60,668 nt of DNA from Rhodospirillales bacterium (GTDB lineage: Bacteria; Pseudomonadota; Alphaproteobacteria; Rhodospirillales; Defluviicoccaceae). Numbering within the stretch: position 1 is the stretch's first letter; the number at the start of each line of letters is the position of its first letter. The stretch is taken from NCBI GenBank assembly GCA_007694935.1, contig REES01000062.1:1-60668 (forward strand), given 5' to 3'. Positions 2,174 to 60,301 of this stretch are shown here, one piece after another. The notes under the pieces are model-generated. The model saw only the letters and a program-made list of their open reading frames with translations, was not told the DNA's origin and did no database searches. A program made the position numbers and the translations under genes.

Positions 2174-3658
2174 GTGACCGAGCACAGCGGCCCTCGGACG
2201 GCCTTCGACTTTCGTCCGGGTCTGACGGTGCTTCTCGGCGCCGCTTTCGGGGCAGCACTGCATCCCGTCTGGCAGCTGGAAGCCCGCTGGCTGGTCATCG
2301 TGGTGGTCGCGGTGGTCGGCGTTGCCGTCGCGCTGATGTTCACCGCGCGGCTGTTCGATTTCCTGTTTGTGAGCCTTCTGGCTACCCTGCCGTTCTCGGC
2401 GTTCCTGAAATGGTTCGCACCGGCGGGGCTGGAGGGGGAGGCATTCGGTGCCGCCGCCTACGCCGGAATGGCGCACATCGGCCTTGCCGACTTCCTGTTG
2501 ATCGGTCTCTTTGGTGCCTGGGCACTCGGCTTCGCACCGCCGCGCCCACCCGCGATGGATCGGCGGCATTGGATCGATACCGCGGTCATTCTCCTGATCA
2601 TCGCCCATGTGGTCTCGATCATCGGGGTTCCCGACCCGGCGCTTGGTATCGGGGCGGTGCTGTTCGTGATGAAATTCGCCGCCTACTATTACATCATTTC
2701 CCGCCACTTCATGCCACGGCATGTGCCCTGGCTCACCACCGCGGTGCTGTGGTCGATCCTGATCGTCTCGGCCATCGGGCTGTTTCAGACCTTCACCGGC
2801 CTTGGCGTCGGCCTCGCGCTTGACAAAGGGGCCGGCGGTGAGGCGCTGCAGACGCAGTACCAGGTGCCGGGCATCGAATACATCGCCCGCGCCACCGGCA
2901 CGTCGTACGACTCGCACGCCTATGGCGGCTTCGTCGGCATGCTGTTGATGCTCGTTCTCGGATCGCTGTTGCGGCCCGGGCAGCCGCGACACGTGGTTGT
3001 CGTGTTGATCGGCTTCAGCCTGTTGGCGATTTCGGCCGTGGTGGTCTCTTACTCCCGATCGGCGTATCTGAGCCTGGCACTCGGCCTCGGCGTGGTGATC
3101 GCAGCGGCGGCATGGCGGGGAGAATGGCGCGCGGTCCGAATTCTGTTGGTGCCGATTCTGGCGGTACTGCCGTTGGCGCCGTGGCTGCTCTCCCGGGTGA
3201 TCGAGCGGTTCGTTACGGCGCCATGGGAAATCATGGTCGCCCGTTTCGAACAGTACGAAGTCGCGGTCGACGTGTGGTTGGCCCACCCATTCTTTGGCTT
3301 CGGTGCCGGAAATTACATGGAGGCCTTGCGCATCTACAATCGTGACGGCTTCCTGGAACTGCCGGTCCACAATGCCATGCTCTGGATGCTGACCGAATCC
3401 GGCGTCTTCGGCGCGGCTTGCTTCTTTGCTATTCTATTCGGTGCCATGTTCGGCTACTGGCGTCTGTTCGCCGCGCGCGACCCCAGTGTCTCCTGGTTGG
3501 CCCTCGGCGGACTGGGGGCGCTGGCAGTATACTTCTTTGACGGCCTCACCCACCCGCTGTTCCGCGAGCCGACGTTGTTCACCTTCTTTTGGCTGTTGGT
3601 CGGCCTGCTGGTTGCGGTGCAAAGGCATGTCGCAGCACGAAAGGAGATGGTCACTTGA
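2174..3658 (+). CDS. O-antigen polymerase/ligase family membrane protein (Wzy/WaaL-like)
   Basis: The protein has 494 residues and about ten to twelve membrane helices, with one large loop between the later helices (around residues 330-400). That loop contains a conserved-looking segment with HPFFGFGAGNY followed by PVHNAMLWMLTESG; the HN pair and the preceding G-rich turn are typical of the Wzy_C domain in O-antigen ligases and polymerases. Such enzymes join lipid-linked repeat units at the periplasmic face. The start is GTG at 2174. It overlaps the following glycosyltransferase by 4 bases. Polymerase and ligase roles cannot be separated from sequence alone; the operon context with Wzz-like and Wzx proteins favours polymerase. 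Confidence 0.8.
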   Translation: MTEHSGPRTAFDFRPGLTVLLGAAFGAALHPVWQLEARWLVIVVVAVVGVAVALMFTARLFDFLFVSLLATLPFSAFLKWFAPAGLEGEAFGAAAYAGMAHIGLADFLLIGLFGAWALGFAPPRPPAMDRRHWIDTAVILLIIAHVVSIIGVPDPALGIGAVLFVMKFAAYYYIISRHFMPRHVPWLTTAVLWSILIVSAIGLFQTFTGLGVGLALDKGAGGEALQTQYQVPGIEYIARATGTSYDSHAYGGFVGMLLMLVLGSLLRPGQPRHVVVVLIGFSLLAISAVVVSYSRSAYLSLALGLGVVIAAAAWRGEWRAVRILLVPILAVLPLAPWLLSRVIERFVTAPWEIMVARFEQYEVAVDVWLAHPFFGFGAGNYMEALRIYNRDGFLELPVHNAMLWMLTESGVFGAACFFAILFGAMFGYWRLFAARDPSVSWLALGGLGALAVYFFDGLTHPLFREPTLFTFFWLLVGLLVAVQRHVAARKEMVT

Positions 3659-4779
3659 TCCAGCCATCCGCCGGGCCGGATGGTCCCGGAGCGGCAGCGA
3701 AGATCAGCGTCGTGGTCTCAACCTACAAGCGGGCTGAGACGCTCCGGGAGACGTGTGCGCGGCTGGCGGCGCAGGATCTGCCGAGCGACGCGTTCGAAGT
3801 GATCGTGGTCGACGACGGTTCGCCAGACCACACGCAGGATGTCGTCCGGGAGTTGTTGCGATCACTGCCGGTCCGCCTGCGCTACCTGCGGCATGACAAT
3901 GCCGGACCCGGGTACACCCAGAACCGTGGCATCGAGGCCGCCTCGGCGCCGCTCGTGCTGCTGATCGCCGATGACATCTGGCTGAAGCCGCAGGCGCTGC
4001 GCGCGCATCTCGAGGCCCACGAGCGGCATCCCGAGCCGGAGGTCGCGGTCCTTGGCCGGGTCGTGCAGTCGCCGCGGCTGACGGAAACCCTGCTGCTGCG
4101 CACGCACGATCCGTTCCGATTCGGTCAGTTGGATGGGCTCGAATGGCTGCCCTATTACTTCTTCTGGGGCTGCAACATTTCGTTCAAGCGGTCGTTCATG
4201 ACGGCCCACGGCATGTTTCGCGAGGACCATGGCCCGGGCGGGGTCGCCTCCCACGAGGATACCGAGGTGGGCTACCGGCTTGCCCAGCACGGCCTTCGCA
4301 TCCGCTACGAGCAGGCGGCTGTGGGCGAACACTATCACCACGAGACACTGGAGCATTTTATCGGCCGGGCCTACATGCGAGGGCTCAATTACTGGTGGTT
4401 CCGTGACTTGGCGCCGGCACCGGAACTCAGCGTCCGATACCGTACCATCACCGACTGGCGCTGCGTGGGCGACCATGTCCGCGCCTGGTGGGGCCCGAGA
4501 CGAGCGTTGCTGATCGGCGGCGATCGGCGGCCACTGCAACTCCTGGCGACCTACGTGGCACGAACGCTCGTGTTCAACGGCTGGGCGGTCGATCGCATCT
4601 GGCTGCCCCTGGTCCGCACCGCCGAACGGAATCAACGGCTTGCCAACTGGGTGCGGCCGATGATGTATCGGGGGATCGTCAACCGGAGCTTCTATCGCGG
4701 CTGCCGTGACGGCAAGTTGTCCCGCCCACGGTCGCAGCCCGAACGACCGGCGACCGGCCCCAGGCTGACGGGTCTTTAG
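3655..4779 (+). CDS. family 2 glycosyltransferase, first of a tandem pair
   Basis: This is a GT-A fold glycosyltransferase of 374 residues. The N-terminus reads ISVVVSTYKRAETL, followed by VIVVDDGSPD, the nucleotide-sugar site, and a DXD-like acidic motif in LIADDIW. A C-terminal region has REDHGPGG and a histidine-rich HYHHET segment. It probably adds one sugar of the repeat unit at the cytoplasmic face. I chose the TTG at 3655: it overlaps the upstream stop (TTGA) and has AAGGAG eight bases before it, whereas a longer frame would run inside the polymerase gene. The next gene encodes a close paralogue. Confidence 0.85.
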   Translation: MIQPSAGPDGPGAAAKISVVVSTYKRAETLRETCARLAAQDLPSDAFEVIVVDDGSPDHTQDVVRELLRSLPVRLRYLRHDNAGPGYTQNRGIEAASAPLVLLIADDIWLKPQALRAHLEAHERHPEPEVAVLGRVVQSPRLTETLLLRTHDPFRFGQLDGLEWLPYYFFWGCNISFKRSFMTAHGMFREDHGPGGVASHEDTEVGYRLAQHGLRIRYEQAAVGEHYHHETLEHFIGRAYMRGLNYWWFRDLAPAPELSVRYRTITDWRCVGDHVRAWWGPRRALLIGGDRRPLQLLATYVARTLVFNGWAVDRIWLPLVRTAERNQRLANWVRPMMYRGIVNRSFYRGCRDGKLSRPRSQPERPATGPRLTGL

Positions 4780-4842
4780 GCCGGGCGTCGCCCTCGAACC
4801 AGCTCTCTTCGATCATGACAAGCAGGGGATGGGCCTGGAGCG

Positions 4843-5919
4843 ATGACTGACACACCACGGATCAGCGTGGTCGTCACGACGTATAATCGTGCCGACACGT
4901 TGCGGGAGACGCTCGCTTGTCTTGCCCGCCAAGACCTCGCGCCGACTGAGTTCGAGGTGGTCGTCGCCGACGACGAGTCGCCTGACAACACCCCGGATGT
5001 CGTCAGTGAACTGTCGGCGACGCTTCCCATCCGGATCCGGTCCATCCGGCACCCCAATCGCGGTCCCGGCTACACCCAGAACCGCGGGATCGAGGCCGCC
5101 TCGGCGCCGCTGGTGCTCCTGATCGCCGATGACATCTGGCTCAAGCCCCAGGCCCTGCGGGCTCATCTCGAGAGCCACGATTGCCACCCCGAGCCCGAAG
5201 TGGCCGTCCTGGGGCGGGTGGTGCAGTCACCCCGGCTCACCGACACGGTGTTTCTACGGATGCATAATCCCTTCCGTTTCGAGCAGTTCGACGGCTTGGA
5301 GTGGCTGCCCGGCTACCTGTTCTGGGCGTGCAACATCTCCTTCAAGCGCGCGTTCATGCTGACCCACGGCATGTTTCGCGAGGACCATGGTCCAGGCGGC
5401 TTGATCACCCACGAAGATGCTGAACTGGGTCATCGGCTCGGCCGGCGGGGACTGCGCATCCGCTATCAGCCGGCGGCGCTGGCCGAACACTATCATCACG
5501 AGACCCTGGACCACGTCCTGAACCGGGCATACCAGCGCGGACTGAACTTCCGTTGGCTCAGGACGCATGCGTCGGCGCCGGAGATCACCGTGCGCTACCA
5601 CGTCCTCGGAAGGTGGACCTACCTCGCCGATCATGGTCACGCGCTGCGCCAGCCGGGTCGGCCTGGACTGATCGGTGTCGACCGCAACCCGCTCAAGCTG
5701 GTCGGGTTGTACGCCGCGCGCGCCATCATGTTCAATTGCCTGACTGTCCCCGGGCTGTGGCTCCCGCTCGCTCGAGCCGCCGAGAGGAACCACAAGCTTG
5801 CCCGGCTGATGCGTCCTTGGATGTATCGCGGGATGGTGAACTGGCACTTCAACCGCGGCTGTGCCGAGGACCGCGCCGCGCCGCCTGCCGTCGAAACGCG
5901 CCACGCCGCGGCCGAGTAG
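4843..5919 (+). CDS. family 2 glycosyltransferase, second of a tandem pair
   Basis: This 358-residue GT2 enzyme is clearly a paralogue of its upstream neighbour. Both share ISVVV(S/T)TY at the N-terminus, an essentially identical central block running from NRGIEAAS through LIADDIWLKPQALRAHLE, and the FREDHGPGG and HYHHET segments. The two diverge most in the last 130 residues, which often influence acceptor choice. It therefore probably adds a similar sugar to a different acceptor. The gene lies 63 bases after the first copy, and the ATG at 4843 sits close downstream of a GGAGCG stretch. Confidence 0.85.
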   Translation: MTDTPRISVVVTTYNRADTLRETLACLARQDLAPTEFEVVVADDESPDNTPDVVSELSATLPIRIRSIRHPNRGPGYTQNRGIEAASAPLVLLIADDIWLKPQALRAHLESHDCHPEPEVAVLGRVVQSPRLTDTVFLRMHNPFRFEQFDGLEWLPGYLFWACNISFKRAFMLTHGMFREDHGPGGLITHEDAELGHRLGRRGLRIRYQPAALAEHYHHETLDHVLNRAYQRGLNFRWLRTHASAPEITVRYHVLGRWTYLADHGHALRQPGRPGLIGVDRNPLKLVGLYAARAIMFNCLTVPGLWLPLARAAERNHKLARLMRPWMYRGMVNWHFNRGCAEDRAAPPAVETRHAAAE

Positions 5920-5926
5920 GCTTTTC

Positions 5927-7444
5927 ATGGCTGCCGATCCTCGGCTGGAGCGGTCGGGCGGCTTTGCGACCCGCGCGATCGTCAATCTGCTCACCGCCGC
6001 GGCGGTGGGCATCCTCGCGGTCGCCAACGAGGTGCTGGCGGCTCGGCTGCTGGGGACGGAATCCTACGGGCTGTTCGCGCTGGCGGTGATTTTCACCCGC
6101 GCGGCGCAGATCGTCGCCCAATCGGGTCTCGACGTTGCCGTCTACCGCCAGATCCCGATCGACCTTGCCGGCGGCAACGGGCCGCGGGCGCGGCCGACGG
6201 TGTTCACCGCGGTCGCATCCAGCGCGGCAATCGGTACCGCGCTGGCGTTGTTGCTCGCTCTCTCCGCCGGCACCATCGCTGAGAGCGGGTTCGGCAAGCC
6301 GGAGCTGGCGACCTACCTTCGGGTCGTCGCGATCGCCGTGCCAGGCTTGGCGATCGTGGAGATCACCGCCTCGGCGCTCCGGGCCGCCGGCGGAATCTGG
6401 TCGCCGGCCGCCCCCCTGGTCGGGGCGCGGGCGTGCTTCGCGGCCGGCGTCGCTCTACTCATGGTGCTCGCCATGGGCGGCCCGTGGGTGGCGGTGGCCT
6501 TCGCGGTCGCGACGTTTTTGCCGTTGGTTGCGGGCATTCTCCTCTCCGCCCGGTTGCTGCCGGCATCGGATGCGGTGCTGCTGTCCCGTTCCGACACTTG
6601 GCAGATGCTGGTCGGGGCATCTCCGATGCTGGCCAGTGCCCTGGTCTACCAGATGATCCTGTGGACCGATGTCGTGGTGATCGGCTGGTTCCGCCCGGCG
6701 TCGGAGGTCGGGATTTATCGGGCGTGCCTGCCCTTCGTCATGCTGATCGAACTGGTGCTGCTGTGCTGGAACGTGGCGGCGGCGCGCCTGTATCCGGTCT
6801 ACGCGGAGCAGCGGGACCGGTCGGCCATTGCCGCCCACTACGAGCGCTCCAACCGCATCGTTCTGTTTGCCACGGCGCCGTATGTGGCGGTGCTGATTGC
6901 CATGCCTGAGCTGCCGCTTCGCCTCATGGGACCGGACTTCGCCGCCGGCGCAACGGTGATCGCCATCCTGGCGGTGGGATATTTCATCAGGAGTGGCCTC
7001 GGCTCGGCCGCGTTCGCTCTGGTCTTCACCGGCCATCCGAAAGCCGAGCTGAAAGCCGCTCTTTCAGCCGCTGCTGCCAGCGTGGTTTTGAATGTCGCCC
7101 TTGTGCCGGTCGCCGGCATCCTCGGCGCAGCAATCGCGAGCGCGACCGCAAATACCATCTACGCGGGAGCAAGAATCATGCTGCTGCGCCGGCATTGGGC
7201 GATTGTGACGACATGGCGGGCGCCGGCGGTCGCAGGGCTGGCCGTTCTGCTGGGAGCCGTCTCGGGCCGGATGATGGGCGACTTCGTCGGGGCCGCCTCC
7301 GATCCGCTGTTTGTGTCCATTGTAACGGTTGCGACGTCGGCTACTTGTTCGGTGCTGGTCGTTTCCTTGCTCGGTCTCCAGCGTGATGACCGCGCGGCAG
7401 TGCGGCGCGCCGTGGCCCGCTTCCGGGGCCGCAACGCACGATAA
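5927..7444 (+). CDS. polysaccharide flippase, MATE/MOP superfamily (Wzx-like)
   Basis: The 505-residue protein is hydrophobic throughout with about 12 to 14 predicted helices. It has the N-terminal pattern of the polysaccharide transporter family: a Gly-rich start, FATRAIVNLLTAAAVG, then AARLLGTESYGLFAL, which is the classic motif after the first helix. Wzx proteins move lipid-linked repeat units from the cytoplasmic to the periplasmic leaflet for Wzy. I chose the ATG at 5927, seven bases after the preceding stop and behind AGTAGG; a longer in-frame start would lie inside the glycosyltransferase gene. Confidence 0.85.
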   Translation: MAADPRLERSGGFATRAIVNLLTAAAVGILAVANEVLAARLLGTESYGLFALAVIFTRAAQIVAQSGLDVAVYRQIPIDLAGGNGPRARPTVFTAVASSAAIGTALALLLALSAGTIAESGFGKPELATYLRVVAIAVPGLAIVEITASALRAAGGIWSPAAPLVGARACFAAGVALLMVLAMGGPWVAVAFAVATFLPLVAGILLSARLLPASDAVLLSRSDTWQMLVGASPMLASALVYQMILWTDVVVIGWFRPASEVGIYRACLPFVMLIELVLLCWNVAAARLYPVYAEQRDRSAIAAHYERSNRIVLFATAPYVAVLIAMPELPLRLMGPDFAAGATVIAILAVGYFIRSGLGSAAFALVFTGHPKAELKAALSAAAASVVLNVALVPVAGILGAAIASATANTIYAGARIMLLRRHWAIVTTWRAPAVAGLAVLLGAVSGRMMGDFVGAASDPLFVSIVTVATSATCSVLVVSLLGLQRDDRAAVRRAVARFRGRNAR

Positions 7445-7459
7445 CAAGGAGTGAACCCG

Positions 7460-9427
7460 ATGGTTGACCGTATCCGCCGGCTCTGTACGTGGCTTCTCGC
7501 GGCGGCCTGCCTCAGCGTGGTCGGCGCTCCGGCGGCCCTGGGGCTGGAGCGCGGCGTCGTCGTCACCCCGCGCAATTTTCCCGATCATGGCGACGCGGAT
7601 GTTCGGGGCATGTTCGACGCCGCCCAGGAGGTGGGCAGCGTCGCTGGCATCGTTCTCGAATGGGACACCCCTAATCTTCAGATGATCGCAGACGTTCTGG
7701 TGGGGCTTGCGCGGGCGCAAGGGCTCACGCCCGTGCTGGTCCTGAATCCCTTCAGGGATGACCGCGGCGCTCTCAGGGTGGCGGCGCCGGCCCACGCCGG
7801 CGGAACCAGCTTCAGCCGCAAGTCCGTCCGGGATGCCTTTGTGCGCGATGCGGCGGCGCTGGCGGCACTGCGGGCACCCTATCTCGGCCTGGGTACGGAC
7901 GTGAACCGGATGGCCGGCAGTGACATCCGCGAGTACGTCCACTTTGCCGAGGCCTACAAGGAGGCCGCGGCCAGAGCGAAGGCGGCGGCACCCGGGACCA
8001 ACGTGTTCGTGTCGTTCCAGTGGGAAATCCTTTCCATGCTCCGCACCAGCGAGCCGGGAAAACTGGCCGAGCATCGCAAGCTGGTCGACGTATTCCGGCC
8101 GGGTTTGGATGTCCTCGCCATCGGCACGCTGCCCAGCATCGTGCGGGACGATCCCCGGGACCTTCCCCCCGACTACTACGCCCGGCTTGCGGACTTCGGT
8201 CGCGACGATCCGAAGGTGATCCTGCAGGCAGGCTGGGCGGCCACCGGCGCCCGGGGCGCGGAGCTGCAGCGGGGTTTTGCCGAACGGTTGCCGGAGCTGG
8301 CGCGTAGGGCCGGTGTCGAGATGATGTTGTGGGCCATGCTGCATGACGTTGCCGACAGCGGACCGGCAGCGGGCTTTGGACTCGCCCAGCGCGACGGCAC
8401 CCGCCGGCCGGCGTTCGCAGCCTTCGCCGCTGCCGCCCCGCGTGCGGCGGCGCCGTCACCATCCCCGAGCCAGTCGGGCGAGCGGCCGCGGCGCGGCAGC
8501 AACACGCGGGAGGCGGATCACTTCAGCATCATGGTGAGCCGGCTGGACGGCTCGGGGCTCAACCGGATCGCCGCCGACCGCGACCGGGAGATCAACCACG
8601 CGCGGGTTTCCCCGGACCATCAATGGGTCACCTTCACCCGCTACAACCGCGAAGGACCGGACGGCACCTCGATGGAAATCCATGGCGTCGAGGAGACCGA
8701 GATCATGCTGATGCGGATCGACGGCAGCGGCATGCGGTCGCTGGTGCCGCCGCGGCGGGGAGCGGTGGCGGCCAACGGCTACTGGACGCCGGATGGCCGG
8801 GGCATCATCTACGTCGCCGTTGATCCGGGCGGGCGACCGGAACTCCGCATCGTCGACGTCGCCACCGGCAGCATCCGCCGGCAGCCGACCCCCGACGCTG
8901 TCATGCCTTCGGATCCACACATCGTCGGCGACAAAATGGTGTTTGCTGCCAAGGGAGCTGTGGACACCATCTGGATTTCCCGGGTCGACGGCAGTGAAGC
9001 CCGCCAGATCACCAACCCCCCGGCTTGGCGGGGCACCGCACCCAGCGGCGTCGGCCCCGGCGACTACGATCCCAAGCTGTCCCCCGACGGCGAGTCCGTT
9101 GCCCTGATGCGCCAGGTGGCACCGGACGAGTGGCACGTCATCGTCGTCGATCTCGCCACCGGCACCGAACGGTCCCTGACCCGGCCGGGCGGGGTGGATG
9201 CGGTACCGGAATGGTCGAGCGACGGCCGGCTGCTGATCTTCTGGCACGTCGACCTCCGCAACCTCGGCAACACCGGGCTGTGGACGATGCGTCCGGACGG
9301 CAGCGAGCGCCGTCAGGTGCCGCTGCCCCGAGGCTACTTCTATACCATGCCGGCATTCTTCCCTGGCGACGGCTCCGGCCCCGATGCCCGCGTCATCTTC
9401 TCCGCCAAGCGCGAACCCAAGCTGTGA
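7460..9427 (+). CDS. secreted protein with N-terminal barrel-like domain and C-terminal TolB-type beta-propeller
   Basis: The 655-residue protein has a signal peptide (RIRR, then a hydrophobic stretch to about residue 27). The first half (about 30-310) looks like an alpha/beta barrel of glycosidase type, with strands such as GIVLEWDT, YLGLGTDVNR and NVFVSFQWE that place Glu and Asp at strand ends. A low-complexity Ala/Pro/Ser linker (about 320-350) leads to several WD40-like TolB repeats with the signatures RVSPDHQWVTFTR, YWTPDGRGIIYV and KLSPDGESVAL. Hydrolase activity is inference. The ATG at 7460 is preferred to the GTG at 7451 because AAGGAG then lies eight bases upstream. It closes the plus-strand polysaccharide operon and may process or bind the polymer. 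Confidence 0.65.
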   Translation: MVDRIRRLCTWLLAAACLSVVGAPAALGLERGVVVTPRNFPDHGDADVRGMFDAAQEVGSVAGIVLEWDTPNLQMIADVLVGLARAQGLTPVLVLNPFRDDRGALRVAAPAHAGGTSFSRKSVRDAFVRDAAALAALRAPYLGLGTDVNRMAGSDIREYVHFAEAYKEAAARAKAAAPGTNVFVSFQWEILSMLRTSEPGKLAEHRKLVDVFRPGLDVLAIGTLPSIVRDDPRDLPPDYYARLADFGRDDPKVILQAGWAATGARGAELQRGFAERLPELARRAGVEMMLWAMLHDVADSGPAAGFGLAQRDGTRRPAFAAFAAAAPRAAAPSPSPSQSGERPRRGSNTREADHFSIMVSRLDGSGLNRIAADRDREINHARVSPDHQWVTFTRYNREGPDGTSMEIHGVEETEIMLMRIDGSGMRSLVPPRRGAVAANGYWTPDGRGIIYVAVDPGGRPELRIVDVATGSIRRQPTPDAVMPSDPHIVGDKMVFAAKGAVDTIWISRVDGSEARQITNPPAWRGTAPSGVGPGDYDPKLSPDGESVALMRQVAPDEWHVIVVDLATGTERSLTRPGGVDAVPEWSSDGRLLIFWHVDLRNLGNTGLWTMRPDGSERRQVPLPRGYFYTMPAFFPGDGSGPDARVIFSAKREPKL

Positions 9428-51836: not shown

Positions 51837-54728
51837 TCAGATCGTCGACGCCGGCGGCTCCCGGTCCAGCACCTCCCGTATCTTGCGGGCCAACTCGTCC
51901 CGGCGGTACGGCTTCGGCAGCAGGTCTACCGGATGGCCGCCGATGTCGGTACGCACCACCCGATCCTCGGCATAGCCCGAGGTCAACAGGATGCGAACCC
52001 CGGGGCGGCGGCGGTTGACCTCCGCCGCGAGTTCCGGCCCGCTCGAGCCGTCGTCCAGCACCACGTCGGTGAACAGCAGATCGAGCTGCGCCATCTGATC
52101 GATCTTCTGCAGCGCCTCGGCCGCGTTGGCCGCCTCCACCACCCGATAGCCCGCCTTCTCCAGCACCCGCAACGCGGTCTTGCGCACGCGCTGGTCATCC
52201 TCCACCACCAGGACGTTCTCGGCGCCGCCCGGTCGCCGGGCGCGCTCGGGCTCGCCGTGGCGCCGGCCCTTTCGCGCCGGTGCCGACCGGCGCAGGAACA
52301 GCTTCATGGTGGTTCCCTTGCCGACCACGCTGTCCACCGTGATGTGGCCGCCCGATTGATTGACGAAGCCGTAGACCATGCTGAGACCCAGGCCACTGCC
52401 CTTGCCGAACTTCTTGGTGGTGAAGAACGGCTCGAAGATCCGATCCAGGATGTCCCGCGGCATGCCGACACCGGTATCGCTGACCGAGATCAACGCATAG
52501 GAACCGGGTTTCATGGGCTGGCCCTCGGCGATGTCGTTCGGCCCCAGGTCCACGCTGTCGGTCGCGATGGTGAGCACGCCGCCTTTCGGCATGGCGTCCC
52601 GGGCATTCACGGTCAGGTTGAGCAGCGCGTTCTCGAGTTGGCCTCGGTCGATCATCGTCTCGCCGACCGCCGGCGACAGGACTTCCCGGATCTCGATCCG
52701 CTCCCCGAGGGTCCGGCGCAGCAGATCGGTCATCTCCCGGATCACCATGTTGATGTCGGTCATTTGCGGGTTGAGCCGCTGGCGCCGAGCGAACGCCAGC
52801 AGGCGGCTGGTCAGTTCGGCGCCACGTTCGGCGGACCAGATGGCGTCGGTGATCAGTTCCCGTTTCGCCTCGTCGTCCGCCATCTCTTCTTCGAGAAGTT
52901 GCAGGTTGCCCAGAATGATCGCCAGCATATTGTTGAAATCGTGGGCGATTCCCCCGGTGAGCTCACCGATCGCCTGCATCTTGAGGACTTGGCGCAGGCG
53001 TTCCTCGGTAGCCTTGCGCTGGGTGATCTCTTCCTTGACCGCCACGTAATGGGTGACCTTGCCGTGGACGTCGCGGACCGGTGCGATCGAGGCCAGTTCC
53101 CAGAACAGGTCCCCGCCCTTCTTGCGATTGAGCAGCTCACCGGTCCAGACATTGCCCGAGCCGATGGTCTGCCACAACAGGGCATATTCCTCCGCGGTGG
53201 TATGGCCGGATTTGAGAATGCTTGGATTCTTGCCCACCACTTCGGGATAGGTGTAGCCGGTGGCCTCGGTGAACTTGGGATTGACGTACTCGATCTTGCC
53301 GTGGACATCGGTAATGATGACAGAGACCGGGCTTTGTTCGATCGCCTGGAACAGCTTGCGAAGGTCGCCCTCGGCGCGGCGATGCGCCGAAATGTCGCGG
53401 ATGAACAGCAGGAACTGCTGTTCCTCCCGCCACCGCATCGGGATCGACTGCATTTCGGCATAGACCACCCCGCCATTGGGGCGGATGATCTCGATCTCGG
53501 CGACGTCCCCTTCCACCACCGGAAACCCGAAAGGCGCTCCCACCAGCTTCTCGGAGGAGTAGCCGAACAGCGTTTCCGCCGCCCGGTTGACGAAGCGGAT
53601 ATGGTTGTCCTTGTCGACGATCATGGTGGCTATCGATTGCATCTCGATGATCGATCGCCAGCGGGCCTCGCTGTCGCGCAGCACCTGTTCCGCCCGCTTC
53701 TGGTCGGTGATGTCGTCGTAGAGGACCACCACCTCGCCGTTAGGGAGGTAGTAGATGTATTGCTCCCGCCAACGACCCGCGCGCCCTTCTCCGCCGACGT
53801 GCATCGGCAGGTTTTCCGGCTGGCGCCGGCGCCAGACCTGCCGGATGGCCGAAAGCAGCCCCTCCTTGGCGACCCCCGGCAGGATCTCGTCGATCTTGCG
53901 TCCGATCACATCCTGCCGGTTCAACCCGTCGATGCGCTCGCCGGCACGGTTGAGATCCTTGAGGATGAAGTGGCGACCGCGGAGTGCGGCCTCCAGCACC
54001 ATGGCACCGCTGCGCATGCTGTCGAACAACTCGCGATAGCGGGCCTCACCCTCCTCGAGCCGGGAGATGATGGGGTCGCTGATCGCGTAGAACAGGTAGC
54101 AGCCAAACGCGATCATGATGATGGCGATGCCGGCCACGACGCTGCCGGCACGCAGGAAGGGTCCGCGGATTTCCTCGAGGCTCACGGTCCCGACCACCGC
54201 CCAGCCCATGACCGCTACCGGCGCGTACGCGGCCAGCACCCGCACCCCAGCGGAATCCCGCCCGACCAGGCTGCCGGCGTTGCCGGCGAGTGCGCCAGCC
54301 ACGGCGGTGGCGAGGCCGTTGGGGACCCCGCCCTTGTCAGCCTGCAGCGCGGTCGACAGCGGTTCGGCTCCGCCGGTCCGGTGGCGCAGCAGCACGACGA
54401 TATCGTCCGCGGCTGCCGAGACGACCAGCAACTCCCCGCTCGCCCGTGGCCAGAAATCGGGGTCCGCTGCCCTGATCTGTTCGATCCGTTTCAGTACCCG
54501 CTCGCCGAGTTGCTCCGCGGTCGGATCGGATGCGGCTTCCGTCCGGGCGACCGTGTCCAGCAGCCGGACGTGGCTGCTGAGCAGATCGGCGAGCTGTGTC
54601 CGCTGGTTCTGGAACGCGGTCTCGTAAAGGGTGCCGATGGCGGTGGCACCGACGGAAACCACCACCACGCTCATGATCAGGCACAGAAAGAACAGACTGC
54701 GGGAGCCGCGGTGGCCGGGTTCGTTCAT
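51837..54728 (-). CDS. triple-PAS hybrid histidine kinase, divergent from the kai operon
   Basis: The 963-residue membrane kinase has an N-terminal helix (about 12-35), a periplasmic sensor, a second helix (about 192-215), three PAS domains (roughly 222-345, 350-455, 460-580; the third with a PAC segment), a HisKA domain with [11 protein letters not shown] (His596), an ATPase domain ([25 protein letters not shown]), and a C-terminal receiver with [12 protein letters not shown] and Asp888 in [11 protein letters not shown]. The start overlaps the response regulator stop by four bases. No DNA-binding domain is present. It may be an output or input kinase of the kai system, by position only. Confidence 0.9.
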
Positions 54729-55171
54729 CTGGGGCCGTGCGAGGACGCATCGTCTCCCGGCTCACCGGAGGGATCGGGCCGGCCGGCCCGGGACAGCGTT
54801 TCCCGCAATCGGGCGACGCTCACCGGCTTGCTCAGCGTCCGCACCGAACGCAGCCCCTTGTACTCTGCCAGCAGCCGGGCGTTGACCGCGTAATCGGCGC
54901 TGTAGCCGGTGATGATGATGATGTCGGCGTCGCAGTTCTGGCGCACCAGCCACAGCACCAGTTCGTTGCCGTCGATATCCGGCATCACCATGTCAATGGC
55001 GATGACATCCGGGGGATTGCGCTGGTAGGCCTGCTGAAAGTCCCGGCCATGGGTGGTGATCTCAACGTCGTAGCCGAGCGGCGCCGCGACCTTGGCCACG
55101 AACGCGGCAAACCGGGGCTCATCGTCCACGATCAAAAGCCGCCGCCGCCCGGCCGTCGCATCCTTCGCCAT
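54725..55171 (-). CDS. single-domain response regulator
   Basis: The 148-residue receiver has LLIVDDEPRF (acid pocket), phosphoacceptor Asp60 in VIAIDMVMPDIDG, and Lys115 in LSKPVS, so it should be phosphorylatable. There is no output domain, so it probably acts through protein contacts or as a phosphotransfer partner of the kinase gene it overlaps. The ATG at 55171 is preferred; a GTG at 55228 would add a basic tail. It is first in the minus-strand pair and is divergent from the kai operon (270 bases). Confidence 0.85.
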   Translation of the reverse strand: MAKDATAGRRRLLIVDDEPRFAAFVAKVAAPLGYDVEITTHGRDFQQAYQRNPPDVIAIDMVMPDIDGNELVLWLVRQNCDADIIIITGYSADYAVNARLLAEYKGLRSVRTLSKPVSVARLRETLSRAGRPDPSGEPGDDASSHGPR

Positions 55172-55337
55172 TCGCTCTCGCCGTCCCTTCTTCGGTGCCG
55201 TCGCGGCGGTTGTCACCGCGAGCCGCACCCCGATGTGATCCCTGCCGCCGCCGGTCCTTCGCCCTCGGCCGCCGGCCTCCGGGCCGGCTTACCGGTGGTT
55301 CCGGGACCGCTCCTGGAGCGGCCCGGGTGACACATAC

Positions 55338-55366
55338 TTGCCATTCAGAGTTGCCCAAGCAATAAG
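55338..55366 (+). promoter_or_regulatory. candidate promoter of the kai operon
   Basis: TTGCCA (55338-55343), 17 bases, AATAAG (55361-55366). The -35 matches five of six and the -10 four of six positions. The leader to the first ATG would be about 70 bases. Not tested. Confidence 0.35.
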
Positions 55367-55441
55367 AGCTTTGATAGCGATGAGCCGCCGTCCTGACGAC
55401 AGGAAATGCCGCACCGGGGGTGGGGATTAAGGTACCGCGAC

Positions 55442-56338
55442 ATGGGGCGTCCTGCCGCGAAAGTATTGTTGGTGTCCGATGACGAGCGGCTCCGGGCCGA
55501 GGTCGAGGCCGCGCTTGGGGACCCGGAGTCCACCGGAGCGTTGGTCGTGGCGGCCGCGCCGCGGTACGAGACGACGCAGCCCCCGGCCGGAGACGGGTTC
55601 GACGTCATCCTGCTCGATGCCGGCGACAATGTCCAAGAGGCTCTGCCGAGCCTGATCAGCGCCCTCGGACCGGTGGTGCCGGGGCCGCCGGTCATCGTGC
55701 TGAGCCGGAGCGACAATGCCGACCGCGCTGCTGCGGCGCTGCGTGCCGGCGCCCAGGAGCATCTCGTCATCGGCGGCGAGGTCGCCACCCGGCTGCCCTG
55801 GGCCATCCGATGCGCGGTCGAACGCCAGCAGTATATCCGCACGCTTACCGCCGCCTTGCAGCACGAACACCACGAATCCGAGTTGCGCGGCCTCAGGGCG
55901 ATGTGCGGTCCTGCGCCGCTGGCGGTGAGTGCCCGCAGTTTCGGCTCGACGCCGCTTTCCGTCAAGGTTCCGGAGCTGTTCGAGGACATGGTGCGGACCT
56001 ACGAGGCCCTGCTGGATTCGGCCCTGGAGGAGAAGGCCCTGAAGGGCAAACATGTGCCGGAGGCGTTGAACCAGCTGGCCGATCAACTGGGTGCGCTGGA
56101 CGCCAGCCCGCGGGATATCGTGGAGCTTCACAAGGCCGCCATCAACTCTAAGATCGGCGGGCAGACCCCCAGCAAGGCCAGGGCCTATGTCGAGGAAGGC
56201 CGGCTCGTCATGGTCCGCCTGATGGGACAACTGGCCACTTTCTACCGCACGCTCTCCTGGGGTAGTAACTTGGCGCGCGGCGCGAGTGGGCGGGGCCAGC
56301 CCATGACCGGCGCGCTGCCAGGAAAGCGGACCCGATGA
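55442..56338 (+). CDS. KaiA-like protein: pseudo-receiver plus RsbU-N/KaiA-C-like domain
   Basis: The 298-residue protein has an N-terminal receiver-like domain (7-125): VLLVSDDE (Asp13/14), VILLDAGD (Asp59), and EHLVIGG where a receiver normally has a Lys (VxKG); Ile110 replaces it, so signalling by phosphorylation is doubtful. A linker (about 130-175) leads to an all-helical domain (about 178-272: VPELFEDMVRTYEALLDSAL, ALNQLADQLGALDASPRDIVELHKAAI, VMVRLMGQLATFYRTL, quoted in parts). This recalls the RsbU N-terminal domain and the KaiA C-terminal domain, which share a fold. The stop overlaps kaiB by four bases. A role in tuning KaiC phosphorylation is inference from position. Confidence 0.6.
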   Translation: MGRPAAKVLLVSDDERLRAEVEAALGDPESTGALVVAAAPRYETTQPPAGDGFDVILLDAGDNVQEALPSLISALGPVVPGPPVIVLSRSDNADRAAAALRAGAQEHLVIGGEVATRLPWAIRCAVERQQYIRTLTAALQHEHHESELRGLRAMCGPAPLAVSARSFGSTPLSVKVPELFEDMVRTYEALLDSALEEKALKGKHVPEALNQLADQLGALDASPRDIVELHKAAINSKIGGQTPSKARAYVEEGRLVMVRLMGQLATFYRTLSWGSNLARGASGRGQPMTGALPGKRTR

Positions 56339-56634
56339 GCAAGTACCTTCTCAGACTGTTCATAGCCGGCCACACCGCCCGGACCGAGCGGGCGATCGCC
56401 AACATCCGGCGCATCTGCGATCAGGATCTCGATCATCAGTACAAGTTGGTGGTGATCGACGTGCTCGAACGACCGCAGCTGGCCGAGGACCAGAAGATTC
56501 TCGCCACCCCGACCCTGATCAAGGAGCTGCCGCCGCCGCTGCGTCGGGTAGTGGGCGACCTCTCCGATCGCGATCGAGTGCTGGTCGGGCTCGAGCTTGC
56601 CATCCAAGACACACAAAAAGGGGAAACTCCATGA
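56335..56634 (+). CDS. kaiB: circadian clock protein KaiB
   Basis: KaiB binds KaiC and sequesters KaiA in the cyanobacterial clock. The 99-residue thioredoxin-fold protein has YLLRLFIAGHTARTERAIANI, YKLVVIDVLERPQLAEDQKILATPTLIK and ELPPPLRRVVGDLSD (quoted in parts), with the conserved cis-Pro region ATPTLIK. The fold-switch family pattern is preserved. Start ATG overlaps the KaiA-like stop, and its stop overlaps kaiC by four bases, so all three are coupled. Confidence 0.92.
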   Translation: MSKYLLRLFIAGHTARTERAIANIRRICDQDLDHQYKLVVIDVLERPQLAEDQKILATPTLIKELPPPLRRVVGDLSDRDRVLVGLELAIQDTQKGETP

Positions 56635-58160
56635 ATACCCTGGTAGCGAATGCTCCGATTCAAAAGGTCGCCACCGGGATCAAGGGGTTCGACTTCATTG
56701 CCGAAGGGGGGCTGCCGGAGGGGCGGACCATCCTGGTGGGCGGCAGCGCCGGCAGCGGCAAGACCATTTTTGCGAGCCAGTTTCTCGCCGAGGGCATCCG
56801 CCAGGCGGATCAGAACGGCGTTTTCGTGACCTTCGAAGAGCATCCGGCCGATATCCGCCGCAACGTGTGCACCTTCGGATGGGACATCGCAGGGTGGGAG
56901 GAGGCGGGCAAGTGGCGGTTCGTCGATGCCGCCCGGGATCCGGCGCAGGAGATGCAGGTGGCCGGTGACTACGACTTCGGCGCCCTGCTCGCCCGCATCG
57001 AGCACGCGGTCAATACCGTGGATGCCAAGCGGGTGGTGCTGGATTCCATCGGCGCGATCTTCGGGTACTTCGTCGACAGCGGCCGGGTCCGCCATGAGCT
57101 GTTCCGCATCGCCTCGGCGCTTCGCGACATGAAGGTGACGGCGGTGCTCACCGGCGAGCGCACCAGCGAATATGGCGAGGTGGCCCGCCATGGATTGGAG
57201 GAGTTCGTGGCCGACGGGGTGATCATCCTGCGCAACGTGCTGGAGGAGGAGAAGCGCCGGCGGACCATCGAGATCCTGAAGTTCCGCGGCACCATGCACC
57301 GCAAGGGGGAATATCCGTTCACCGTTCTGCCCAGGGAAGGCATTGTTGTCATTCCACTCTCCGCCATCGAGCTGAAGCAGCGTTCCGGCGACATCCGGGT
57401 CACCTCCGGCAATGCCGAACTCGACCGCATGTGCGGCGGCGGCCTGTTCCGGGATTCCGTCATCCTGGTCTCCGGCGCCACCGGCACCGGCAAGACCCTG
57501 ATGGTCACCCACTTCGTCGACGGCGCCGCCGCCGCCGGGGAGCGTTCGCTGCTGCTGGCCTACGAGGAAAGCCGGGAGCAGCTCGGCCGCAACGCCATCG
57601 GCTGGGGCACCGATTTCGACCGGCTGGAGCGGGAGGGCAAGCTCCGGGTGGTGTGCGAGTATCCCGAGACCGCCGGGATCGAGGATCACCTGGTCAAGAT
57701 CAAGGACGAGATCGAGGCGTTCAAGCCCGACCGGGTCGCCATGGACAGCCTGTCGGCGCTGGAGCGGATCTCCACCGGGCGCGGCTTCCGGGAGTTCGTG
57801 CTGGGCCTCACCTCGTTCATCAAGCACAAGGAGATCACCGGCCTGTTCACCTCCACCACCCCCACCCTCATGGGCGGATCCTCGGTGACGGAGGCCCACA
57901 TCTCATCCATCACCGATACCATCGTCCTGCTCCGCTATGTGGAGCTGTTCGGGGAGATGAAGCGCGGCATCATGGTTCTGAAGATGCGCGGCTCCCGCCA
58001 CGAAAAGGAAATCCGCGAGTTGGTGATCGACGAACAGGGGATGCACATCGGCCATCAGTTCCGCAACGTCGCCGGCATCCTGGCCGGCCACCCGACCCAG
58101 ATCGCGGTGTCGGAACTGGAGCGGCTGGACGAGTTGTTCCCCAGCGAGATGATGCGGTGA
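56631..58160 (+). CDS. kaiC: circadian clock ATPase KaiC
   Basis: KaiC is a double RecA-like ATPase and autokinase. In the 509-residue protein, CI has Walker A GGSAGSGKT (K44, T45) and catalytic E69/E70; CII has GATGTGKT (K288, T289) and an acidic EE in AYEESRE. Relative to the Synechococcus protein everything is shifted by six residues. The phosphosite loop reads VTEAHISSITD: Ser425 and Ser426 replace the Ser431/Thr432 pair, and Thr420 corresponds to Thr426. The C-terminal tail, which binds KaiA in cyanobacteria, is short. tRNA-Ser follows 50 bases later. Confidence 0.95.
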   Translation: MNTLVANAPIQKVATGIKGFDFIAEGGLPEGRTILVGGSAGSGKTIFASQFLAEGIRQADQNGVFVTFEEHPADIRRNVCTFGWDIAGWEEAGKWRFVDAARDPAQEMQVAGDYDFGALLARIEHAVNTVDAKRVVLDSIGAIFGYFVDSGRVRHELFRIASALRDMKVTAVLTGERTSEYGEVARHGLEEFVADGVIILRNVLEEEKRRRTIEILKFRGTMHRKGEYPFTVLPREGIVVIPLSAIELKQRSGDIRVTSGNAELDRMCGGGLFRDSVILVSGATGTGKTLMVTHFVDGAAAAGERSLLLAYEESREQLGRNAIGWGTDFDRLEREGKLRVVCEYPETAGIEDHLVKIKDEIEAFKPDRVAMDSLSALERISTGRGFREFVLGLTSFIKHKEITGLFTSTTPTLMGGSSVTEAHISSITDTIVLLRYVELFGEMKRGIMVLKMRGSRHEKEIRELVIDEQGMHIGHQFRNVAGILAGHPTQIAVSELERLDELFPSEMMR

Positions 58161-58209: not shown

Positions 58210-58297
58210 GGATGGGTGGCCGAGCGGCTGAAGGCACCGGTCTTGAAAACCGGCAGGCGGCAACGCCTCGTGGGTTCGAATCCCACCCCATCCGCCA
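58210..58297 (+). tRNA. tRNA-Ser (anticodon TGA)
   Basis: The acceptor arms GGATGGG and CCCATCC pair perfectly, followed by G and CCA. The anticodon stem CCGGT/ACCGG closes the loop CTTGAAA with anticodon TGA, which reads UCA. A long variable arm (about 18 bases) identifies the serine class. The T arm carries GGTTCGAATCC. It stands at the edge of a degraded, probably acquired region. Confidence 0.93.
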
Positions 58298-59891: not shown

Positions 59892-60080
59892 ATGCCGTTA
59901 ATTACTGTTGTAGTCGTCTTGATCGTGGTTGGTGTCTTGCTGTGGGCAGTCAATACGTACATACCGATGGACAGCAAGATAAAAACCATCCTGAATGTCG
60001 TAGTTGTAATTGCAGTTATACTCTGGCTGCTCAGTGCGTTTGGCGTGCTCGGATCGCTTGATACAATCAGAGTCGGCTGA
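59892..60080 (+). CDS. small two-helix membrane protein (Thivi_2564-like)
   Basis: The 62-residue protein has two membrane helices (about 3-20 and 33-53) joined by the short loop NTYIPMDSKIKTI, the pattern of small membrane proteins of the Thivi_2564 type often found near CsbD and other stress genes. AAGGAGCG lies close upstream of the ATG. Function is unknown. The gene is AT-richer than the main chromosome. Confidence 0.65.
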   Translation: MPLITVVVVLIVVGVLLWAVNTYIPMDSKIKTILNVVVVIAVILWLLSAFGVLGSLDTIRVG

Positions 60081-60115
60081 CAATGACGTCTGACTTAACG
60101 CGAGGAGATCCGGTC

Positions 60116-60301
60116 ATGGATAAGGATCGCATCAAAGGCTCGCTCAAGCAGGTTTCTGGCAGCATCAAGGAAGCCGCTGGCAAGGTGTTTGGAGATAAGA
60201 AAACGGAAATCAAAGGCAAAGCGGAGAAAATCGAGGGCGAGATCCAGAATGCCGCTGGTCGTTTCAAGGATACTGTGCGTAAACCGTTCGACAAGACGTA
60301 A
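60116..60301 (+). CDS. CsbD-family stress protein
   Basis: The 61-residue hydrophilic protein matches the CsbD pattern: DKDRIKGSLKQVSGSIKEA, then GKVFGDKKTEIKGKAEK and GEIQNAAGRFKD. CsbD proteins are induced by general stress in many bacteria, and their molecular role is unclear. The ATG at 60116 follows AGGAG by eight bases; an earlier start at 60083 would add an atypical leader. It lies 35 bases after the two-helix membrane protein gene. Confidence 0.85.
   Translation: MDKDRIKGSLKQVSGSIKEAAGKVFGDKKTEIKGKAEKIEGEIQNAAGRFKDTVRKPFDKT

Follow-up and report, generated by a model that had tools for sequence, protein, structure and literature searches.

A KaiA3-type kaiABC operon with a predicted pseudo-receiver in its KaiA-like protein in a Rhodospirillales bacterium

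Introduction

KaiA is regarded as the component that makes a self-sustained clock of the KaiBC timer, and its orthologs outside the cyanobacteria were recognised recently (PMC11372060). The architecture and gene order of the KaiA3-KaiB3-KaiC3 system have been published, with orthologs outside the cyanobacteria that include Rhodospirillum and Bradyrhizobium (Kobler et al. 2024, PMC11372060). As described there, KaiA3 of Synechocystis PCC 6803 (Sll0485) joins an N-terminal receiver-type domain to a KaiA-C domain, is encoded directly upstream of kaiB, binds KaiC3 and promotes its phosphorylation; the KaiC3 system is reported without an extended KaiC C-terminus, and the usual gene order is kaiA3-kaiB3-kaiC3, with kaiC3 lying apart in Synechocystis itself. 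Here a kaiA-like/kaiB/kaiC operon is analysed in a stretch of 60,668 nucleotides, contig REES01000062.1 of a Rhodospirillales bacterium (the window). Its first protein has a receiver-type domain and a C-terminal KaiA-like domain, its gene lies in the same direction upstream of kaiB and kaiC, and its KaiC of 509 amino acids lacks a C-terminal extension. The first gene with kaiBC is thus a further member of the published KaiA3-KaiB3-KaiC3 kind and not a new kind of clock, a likeness drawn from the published descriptions of the system. The operon is likely to be a KaiA3-type KaiABC module, the first protein of which would activate KaiC phosphorylation while carrying a pseudo-receiver.

Other described systems differ from the window. 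In Rhodospirillum rubrum the KaiA3 ortholog Rru_A3293 precedes kaiB2 and kaiC2 with a gene for a PAS histidine kinase beside them (PMC10931921), whereas the window has both a kinase and a response regulator gene upstream of the operon, in divergent orientation. The KaiBC hourglass of Rhodobacter (Cereibacter) sphaeroides is likewise built of alphaproteobacterial KaiB and KaiC, but it is described without KaiA and with an extended KaiC C-terminus (PMC11372060); the window is opposite on both points, since its KaiC ends 33 residues past the start of the A-loop and a KaiA-C-like gene precedes kaiB. The helical N-terminal domain of Bacillus subtilis RsbU has been likened in fold to KaiA-C (PMC11372060). 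A text search of Dvornyk and Mei (2021; PMC8113500) for terms relating to non-cyanobacterial homologs gave no matches.

Results

Sequence and structure matches of the full-length first protein were dominated by its receiver part. Matches in the PDB and NCBIfam were mostly weak receiver matches, the best 60 of 335 rows of a full-length profile against the PDB fell within profile positions 1-182 on the receiver side, the list of structure matches was filled by receivers, and a search of class genomes with the full-length profile was swamped by them (282 of 385 genomes). The C-terminal domain was therefore searched alone, in the PDB as in the genomes. The profile covered residues 140-274 and was built with 13 relatives (14 rows) and then with 18 (19 rows). 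Against 177,635 PDB sequences the 14-row profile placed KaiA on top (1v2z, expect value (E) 6.7e-4; 1q6a, 1.0e-3), with KaiA accounting for 8 of the 19 matches; for the 19-row profile the top matches were KaiA at E 3.4e-4 and 4.6e-4, and 8 of 13 matches were KaiA. A model of the C-terminal domain alone had a mean predicted local distance difference test score (pLDDT) of 83, and all its top five Foldseek rows were KaiA (E 0.04-0.08), row six being a designed protein. With VIA the best eight entries were all KaiA at Z 11.3-12.2 and a root-mean-square deviation of 2.4-3.2 over 90-100 residues, with 13-17% identity over the aligned part. Canonical Synechococcus and Thermosynechococcus KaiA, which also combines a pseudo-receiver with KaiA-C, is thus the best match in sequence and fold, at low identity. 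Below KaiA came a stressosome protein (Z 10.2), smURFP (9.3), RsbR (9.1) and others such as globins, and RsbU-N reached Z 6.3 over 68 residues at rank 47 of the best 50 rows. On these scores RsbU-N was rejected as the better match. Because KaiA comes first both by sequence profile and by predicted fold, the C-terminal domain is, as predicted from these, a distant KaiA-C of the KaiA3 sort. An earlier note on this DNA had seen in the helical domain, encoded in an operon with kaiB and kaiC, a resemblance to KaiA-C and to RsbU-N and had asked for a fold comparison with the two; the KaiA-C likeness is upheld by the profile, Foldseek and VIA, and the comparison clearly favours KaiA-C.

Several results weigh against this identification. 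The unrelated SHERP chain (2x43) stood among the KaiA matches at E 0.0026 and 0.012, Foldseek gave no match at E 0.001, and hhalign with a single template gave E 1.9e-4 but a probability of just 47.7. Pfam KaiA found no match in the first protein or in the host genome, while matching the S. elongatus control. Helical bundles may furthermore reach Z 13 by arrangement without kinship, and for this reason weight was placed on the agreement of sequence and fold.

The genome searches scored the best first-look candidates per genome, so that absences are not proof. At E 1e-4 the C-domain profile had matches in 15 of the 248 order genomes and in 6 of the 385 class genomes, and KaiB at E 1e-10 was found in 34 and 13 genomes, respectively. 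KaiB was present in 14 of the 15 order genomes with the C-domain (Fisher p 7e-13) and in 4 of the 6 class genomes (p 1e-5); without the genome of the window p is 5e-12 and 2e-4, respectively. These p values are too small since the genomes are related, and the two tests overlap a little, the samples sharing at least 5 genomes. The matches numbered 21 (16 in the order sample and 5 more in the class sample), and 17 of them lie directly before kaiB and kaiC, with gaps of at most 49 bases between kaiA and kaiB and at most 58 between kaiB and kaiC, and with overlap in 8 of the 17 at each junction. A search of plasmids with the first protein gave no matches. Four C-domain matches (L048, L102, L103, L168) are not beside kaiBC, a point on the other side of the balance. 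That the helical domain serves general partner binding in the manner of RsbU-N or the stressosome, with no part in KaiC control, is very unlikely: the stressosome, RsbR and RsbU-N scores and these four stray loci are what such a domain would lead one to expect, and they are outweighed by the first place of KaiA in both sequence and fold and by the 17 loci directly before kaiBC.

Among the loci with the domain, several depart from the arrangement in the window. L048 (6633-7430), L102 (7276-8127) and L103 (109-879) encode receiver-KaiA_C proteins without adjoining kaiBC, and KaiB was not found in their genomes at E 1e-10. The genes in L048 and L102 adjoin histidine kinases, and in L102 also a Rec-GGDEF-EAL gene. 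The 338-residue protein of L168 (4556-5572) has a sub-threshold PAS match and a weaker KaiA-C-like end (E 4e-11), and neither KaiB nor KaiC was found within the 9 kb examined. In L104 (6385-8004, genome G409) KaiA-C ends an open reading frame (ORF) that starts, as judged by eye, with a receiver-like part and contains two PAS domains; kaiB comes next, then a kaiC in divergent orientation. This is a different sensory architecture for a KaiA. In L042 (G097) two ORFs in different frames, one for the receiver (6767-7216) and one for KaiA-C (7222-7668), stand in place of a single KaiA-like gene, through either a sequencing error or a real split. L041 (G121) holds two convergent kai loci (2968-4789 and 4895-7600), one a kaiABC like that of the window, the other a kaiBC that has neither KaiA nor the KaiC tail motif described below. 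L045 (G241) combines two kaiB genes with one KaiA-like gene, whose C-domain shares 36% identity with that of the window; a kinase-like stretch comes after its kaiC. Pairs of kaiB near one kaiC and without a KaiA-like gene occur in L106, L108, L110, L113, L159 and L179-L182; most of these kaiC genes carry a long extension, those of L159 and L182 do not.

The full-length model of the first protein (14 rows, mean pLDDT 77, predicted template modelling score 0.48) consists of a receiver, a long helix and the helical C-terminal domain. On the receiver side VIA gave Z 13.8-16.1 for the best 50 entries, nearly all of them response regulators, and Pfam Response_reg scored 18.2, below its cut-off of 30.2. 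In the alignment the active-site residues D13, D14, D59 and S88 are kept and the conserved Lys is replaced by Ile110, as the earlier note had claimed for a receiver-like domain; the fold and the site are both borne out. A receiver lacking any one of five conserved residues is by published definition a pseudo-receiver (PMC12632262), and with Ile110 in place of Lys the N-terminal domain is one. No pseudo-receiver KaiA3 was found described in open-access papers, exclusive of their supplements, and the phosphorylatable Asp is reported in all cyanobacterial KaiA3 but two (PMC11372060), whereas the window lacks the receiver Lys and its relatives are further eroded.

The ratio of nonsynonymous to synonymous substitution rates (dN/dS) between the window and L004, the one named relative in a search for related loci, from the metagenome-assembled genome Rhodospirillales bacterium PLM2.Bin41 of the same genus, was 0.35 in the receiver and 0.10 in KaiA-C, and between L038 and L040 it was 0.32 and 0.09, respectively. 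The C-domain is under strong purifying selection and the receiver much less so. A chance ORF for the first gene was ruled out by this selection and by the conserved gene order. The receiver site was compared in 18 proteins including that of the window, with the split gene of L042 and the other architectures of L104 and L168 left out. As far as it can be read, it is complete in 6 (L043, L048, L100-L103; L103 lacks the first receiver strand near a contig edge), and these occur both with kaiBC (L043, L100, L101) and without (L048, L102, L103). The site is eroded in the other 12, all linked to kaiBC. The best tree has one change, seen in 48% of bootstrap trees, and its inner branches are mostly weak, which leaves one or two receiver losses.

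Divergently from the operon, the window encodes a single-domain response regulator, in which the receiver DD, D, T and K are all present as read by eye, and a hybrid histidine kinase. Both keep their position in 9 of 9 loci with KaiA of the window's family, the window included, one kinase copy being cut by a contig end; in L043, which is of a different family, this comparison turned up neither beside the operon. In L048 the kinase near the receiver-KaiA_C gene has an N-terminal region similar to the corresponding region of the kinase in the window (29% over 221 residues), a hint that the kinase and the KaiA-type protein are connected. The response regulator is probably a partner of the kai operon, and the hybrid kinase probably an input or output partner. 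The KaiA-like protein could be mainly an input adaptor, through which the hybrid kinase would signal via Asp59 to KaiC in a two-component switch without a clock. Such a switch agrees with the conservation of Asp59, the acidic pair and Ser88, with the 9 of 9 family loci and with the kinases adjoining the kaiBC-free genes of L048 and L102, but is considered unlikely: Lys is lost in the window and Asp or the acidic pair also in several family relatives, the loss of any one of the five residues defines a pseudo-receiver (PMC12632262), the receiver dN/dS is more than three times that of the C-domain, and a separate receiver, complete by eye, is encoded next door.

The second and third genes are kaiB and kaiC. 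KaiB passed Pfam KaiB (101.9 bits, cut-off 27) and, by 0.1 bit, one NCBIfam KaiB model (110.1, cut-off 110), and was below the cut-off of a second (104.5 vs 145.3). At E 1e-3 or better it is the single KaiB match in the host genome; accordingly neither a further KaiB nor a SasA-type kinase carrying a KaiB-like domain was detected there at this threshold. KaiC passed Pfam KaiC and both NCBIfam circadian KaiC equivalogs (703.4 vs 408 and 618.8 vs 546.25). It scored 572-593 bits with most full-length cyanobacterial KaiC in the PDB and 321-325 bits with the chains 8dba and 8fwi (568 amino acids), which we take to be Rhodobacter KaiC. Its identity to the C. sphaeroides plasmid KaiC was 38.5% in 8 of 9 records and 38.9% in the remaining one. 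A KaiC2-type hourglass was rejected on these sequence matches and on the comparison of KaiC length and tail. A block of 503 bases in the CII half of kaiC is exactly identical between the window (57501-58003) and L004 (7063-7565), while kaiB and kaiC outside it are about 80-95% identical per 100 bases; either the sequences underwent recombination or gene conversion recently, or the assembly of one draft is chimeric.

At the place of the phosphorylation pair KaiC has Ser-Ser, as do 15 of the 17 KaiC encoded with a KaiA-like gene, L100 having Ser-Thr and L104 giving no pattern match. This speaks against the KaiA3-type reading of the operon, Ser-Thr being dominant in cyanobacterial KaiC1 and KaiC3 (PMC5520375), and so does the report that two cyanobacterial and two archaeal KaiC3 were not stimulated by S. 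elongatus KaiA (PMC5520375).

KaiA is described to bind the C-terminal tail of KaiC (PMC4844972). Examination of 58 loci gave 48 KaiC frames, three of which were fragments shorter than 450 amino acids that were counted as KaiA-less and left out of the tree. The final 35 residues were searched for the pattern [ED]..[RK][LI]..[LMI]F, which had been picked once the tails had been inspected; it was found in 15 of 17 KaiC with a KaiA-like neighbour and in 0 of 31 without; the two KaiA loci lacking it are L043 and L104. Tails of a different kind, long charged C-terminal extensions, occur in 18 of the 31 KaiA-less KaiC, which measure 556-620 amino acids. Closer contrasts, in the same clade as KaiC with KaiA and without the tail, are L107, L109, L112, L159, the second copy of L041 and L185. 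In the KaiC tree of 45 rows, made with the tail columns removed, KaiA presence requires 3 changes and yields 1 to 3 independent pairs; with so few pairs, clustered on the tree, the contrast is not significant. The choice of pattern, the two exceptions and this lack of significance detract from the case for docking, and the tail contrast is support, not proof, for a putative KaiA-like docking site.

In the remaining alternative the KaiA-like protein would bind KaiC or KaiB without promoting phosphorylation, only tethering or localising them, and KaiBC would by itself keep time as the Rhodobacter hourglass does. Timers made of KaiBC alone have been described for Rhodobacter and proposed for Rhodopseudomonas (PMC11372060), and the KaiC3 proteins tested are reported to phosphorylate without KaiA (PMC5520375). 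It is nevertheless rated as quite improbable, as the window KaiC of 509 amino acids has an A-loop and a short tail in place of the extensions of the 18 long KaiA-less KaiC, and KaiA-C is strongly conserved.

The positions of the features are given in Table 1. The window is a contig (C79) of a draft genome of 3.09 Mb and 97.6% completeness. All three kai ORFs are on the plus strand, and both junctions are 4-base ATGA overlaps. The ORF coordinates, the two junctions and the family matches confirm the three overlapping genes of the earlier note; its statement that they are made in a fixed ratio goes too far, as the overlaps suggest translational coupling only, a fixed protein ratio being a further step. 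Downstream of kaiC a tRNA-Ser is found at 58210, and beyond it (59892-60301) two small ORFs of 62 amino acids, membrane-like, and 72 amino acids, CsbD-like, both as judged by eye. Reaction-centre genes were not detected in the host by one family search of the 97.6% complete draft, on which the description of the host as non-phototrophic rests; among 21 relatives they are present in G074, G113 and G009.

Table 1. Features of the kai operon and its divergent neighbours in the window.
Feature	Position	Strand	Basis or remark
kaiA-like (KaiA3-type) gene, P0001, 298 amino acids	55442..56338	+	ORF; C-domain profile matches 15/248 order genomes
Predicted pseudo-receiver domain, residues about 5-128; D13 D14 D59 S88 kept, Lys replaced by Ile110	55454..55825	+	Alignment, model, fold match
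Mostly helical linker, residues about 129-170	55826..55951	+	Model; 86% identity to L004
Predicted KaiA-C-like four-helix domain, residues about 171-274	55952..56263	+	Profile, model, fold match; dN/dS 0.10
kaiB, P0002, 99 amino acids	56335..56634	+	ATGA overlaps with kaiA-like gene and kaiC; Pfam KaiB 101.9 bits
kaiC, P0003, 509 amino acids, two P-loop domains	56631..58160	+	Pfam, NCBIfam, alignment
KaiC Ser425-Ser426, place of the cyanobacterial KaiC1/KaiC3 Ser-Thr phosphorylation pair	57903..57908	+	Alignment; motif HISSITD
KaiC A-loop region and C-terminal tail (last 33 residues)	58059..58157	+	Candidate KaiA-like docking site, from tail motif
Intergenic region, response regulator to kai operon	55229..55441	.	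Gene positions; presumed promoter region
Single-domain response regulator	54725..55228	-	Pfam Response_reg 59.4 bits; divergent from kai operon
Hybrid histidine kinase: PAS repeats, HisKA, HATPase, receiver	51837..54728	-	Pfam; divergent from kai operon

Discussion

The earlier note had left room for a distinct timing or timer-like regulator. A distinct kind is not supported, since the architecture and gene order match the KaiA3-KaiB3-KaiC3 system as described (PMC11372060). The departures from the published kind are the lost receiver Lys and the decay of the receiver in the family, the Ser-Ser pair of KaiC, and a host without detected reaction-centre genes.

In the favoured KaiA3-type module the KaiA-C domain would dimerise and take hold of KaiC at its A-loop and C-terminal tail, and the docked domain would raise KaiC autophosphorylation at Ser425/Ser426. 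KaiB would bind phosphorylated KaiC and take the KaiA-like protein out of action, with phosphorylation rising and then falling. The receiver part would no longer have phosphorylation as its regular input and may serve as a scaffold or as a ligand or redox sensor, as the cyanobacterial KaiA pseudo-receiver does; that of S. elongatus KaiA is reported to bind quinones (PMC12632262). Signals of the cell probably enter or leave via the neighbouring hybrid kinase and response regulator, and the module may be either a free-running oscillator or a damped or hourglass timer.

A wider evolutionary proposal is possible, and is put forward tentatively. KaiA may have arisen from a wider two-component output family ending in KaiA-C, the alphaproteobacterial receiver losing its phosphorylation site once or twice after the protein had become tied to KaiC, in parallel to the pseudo-receiver of cyanobacterial KaiA; the window would then hold a phosphorylation-independent KaiABC timer in a non-phototroph. 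The relatives with complete receivers, or without kaiBC, are candidate intermediates for the recruitment of KaiA. A KaiA with a decayed receiver, together with a KaiC with a likely docking tail and in a host lacking detected reaction-centre genes, would offer a direct test of KaiABC oscillation beyond cyanobacteria and phototrophs.

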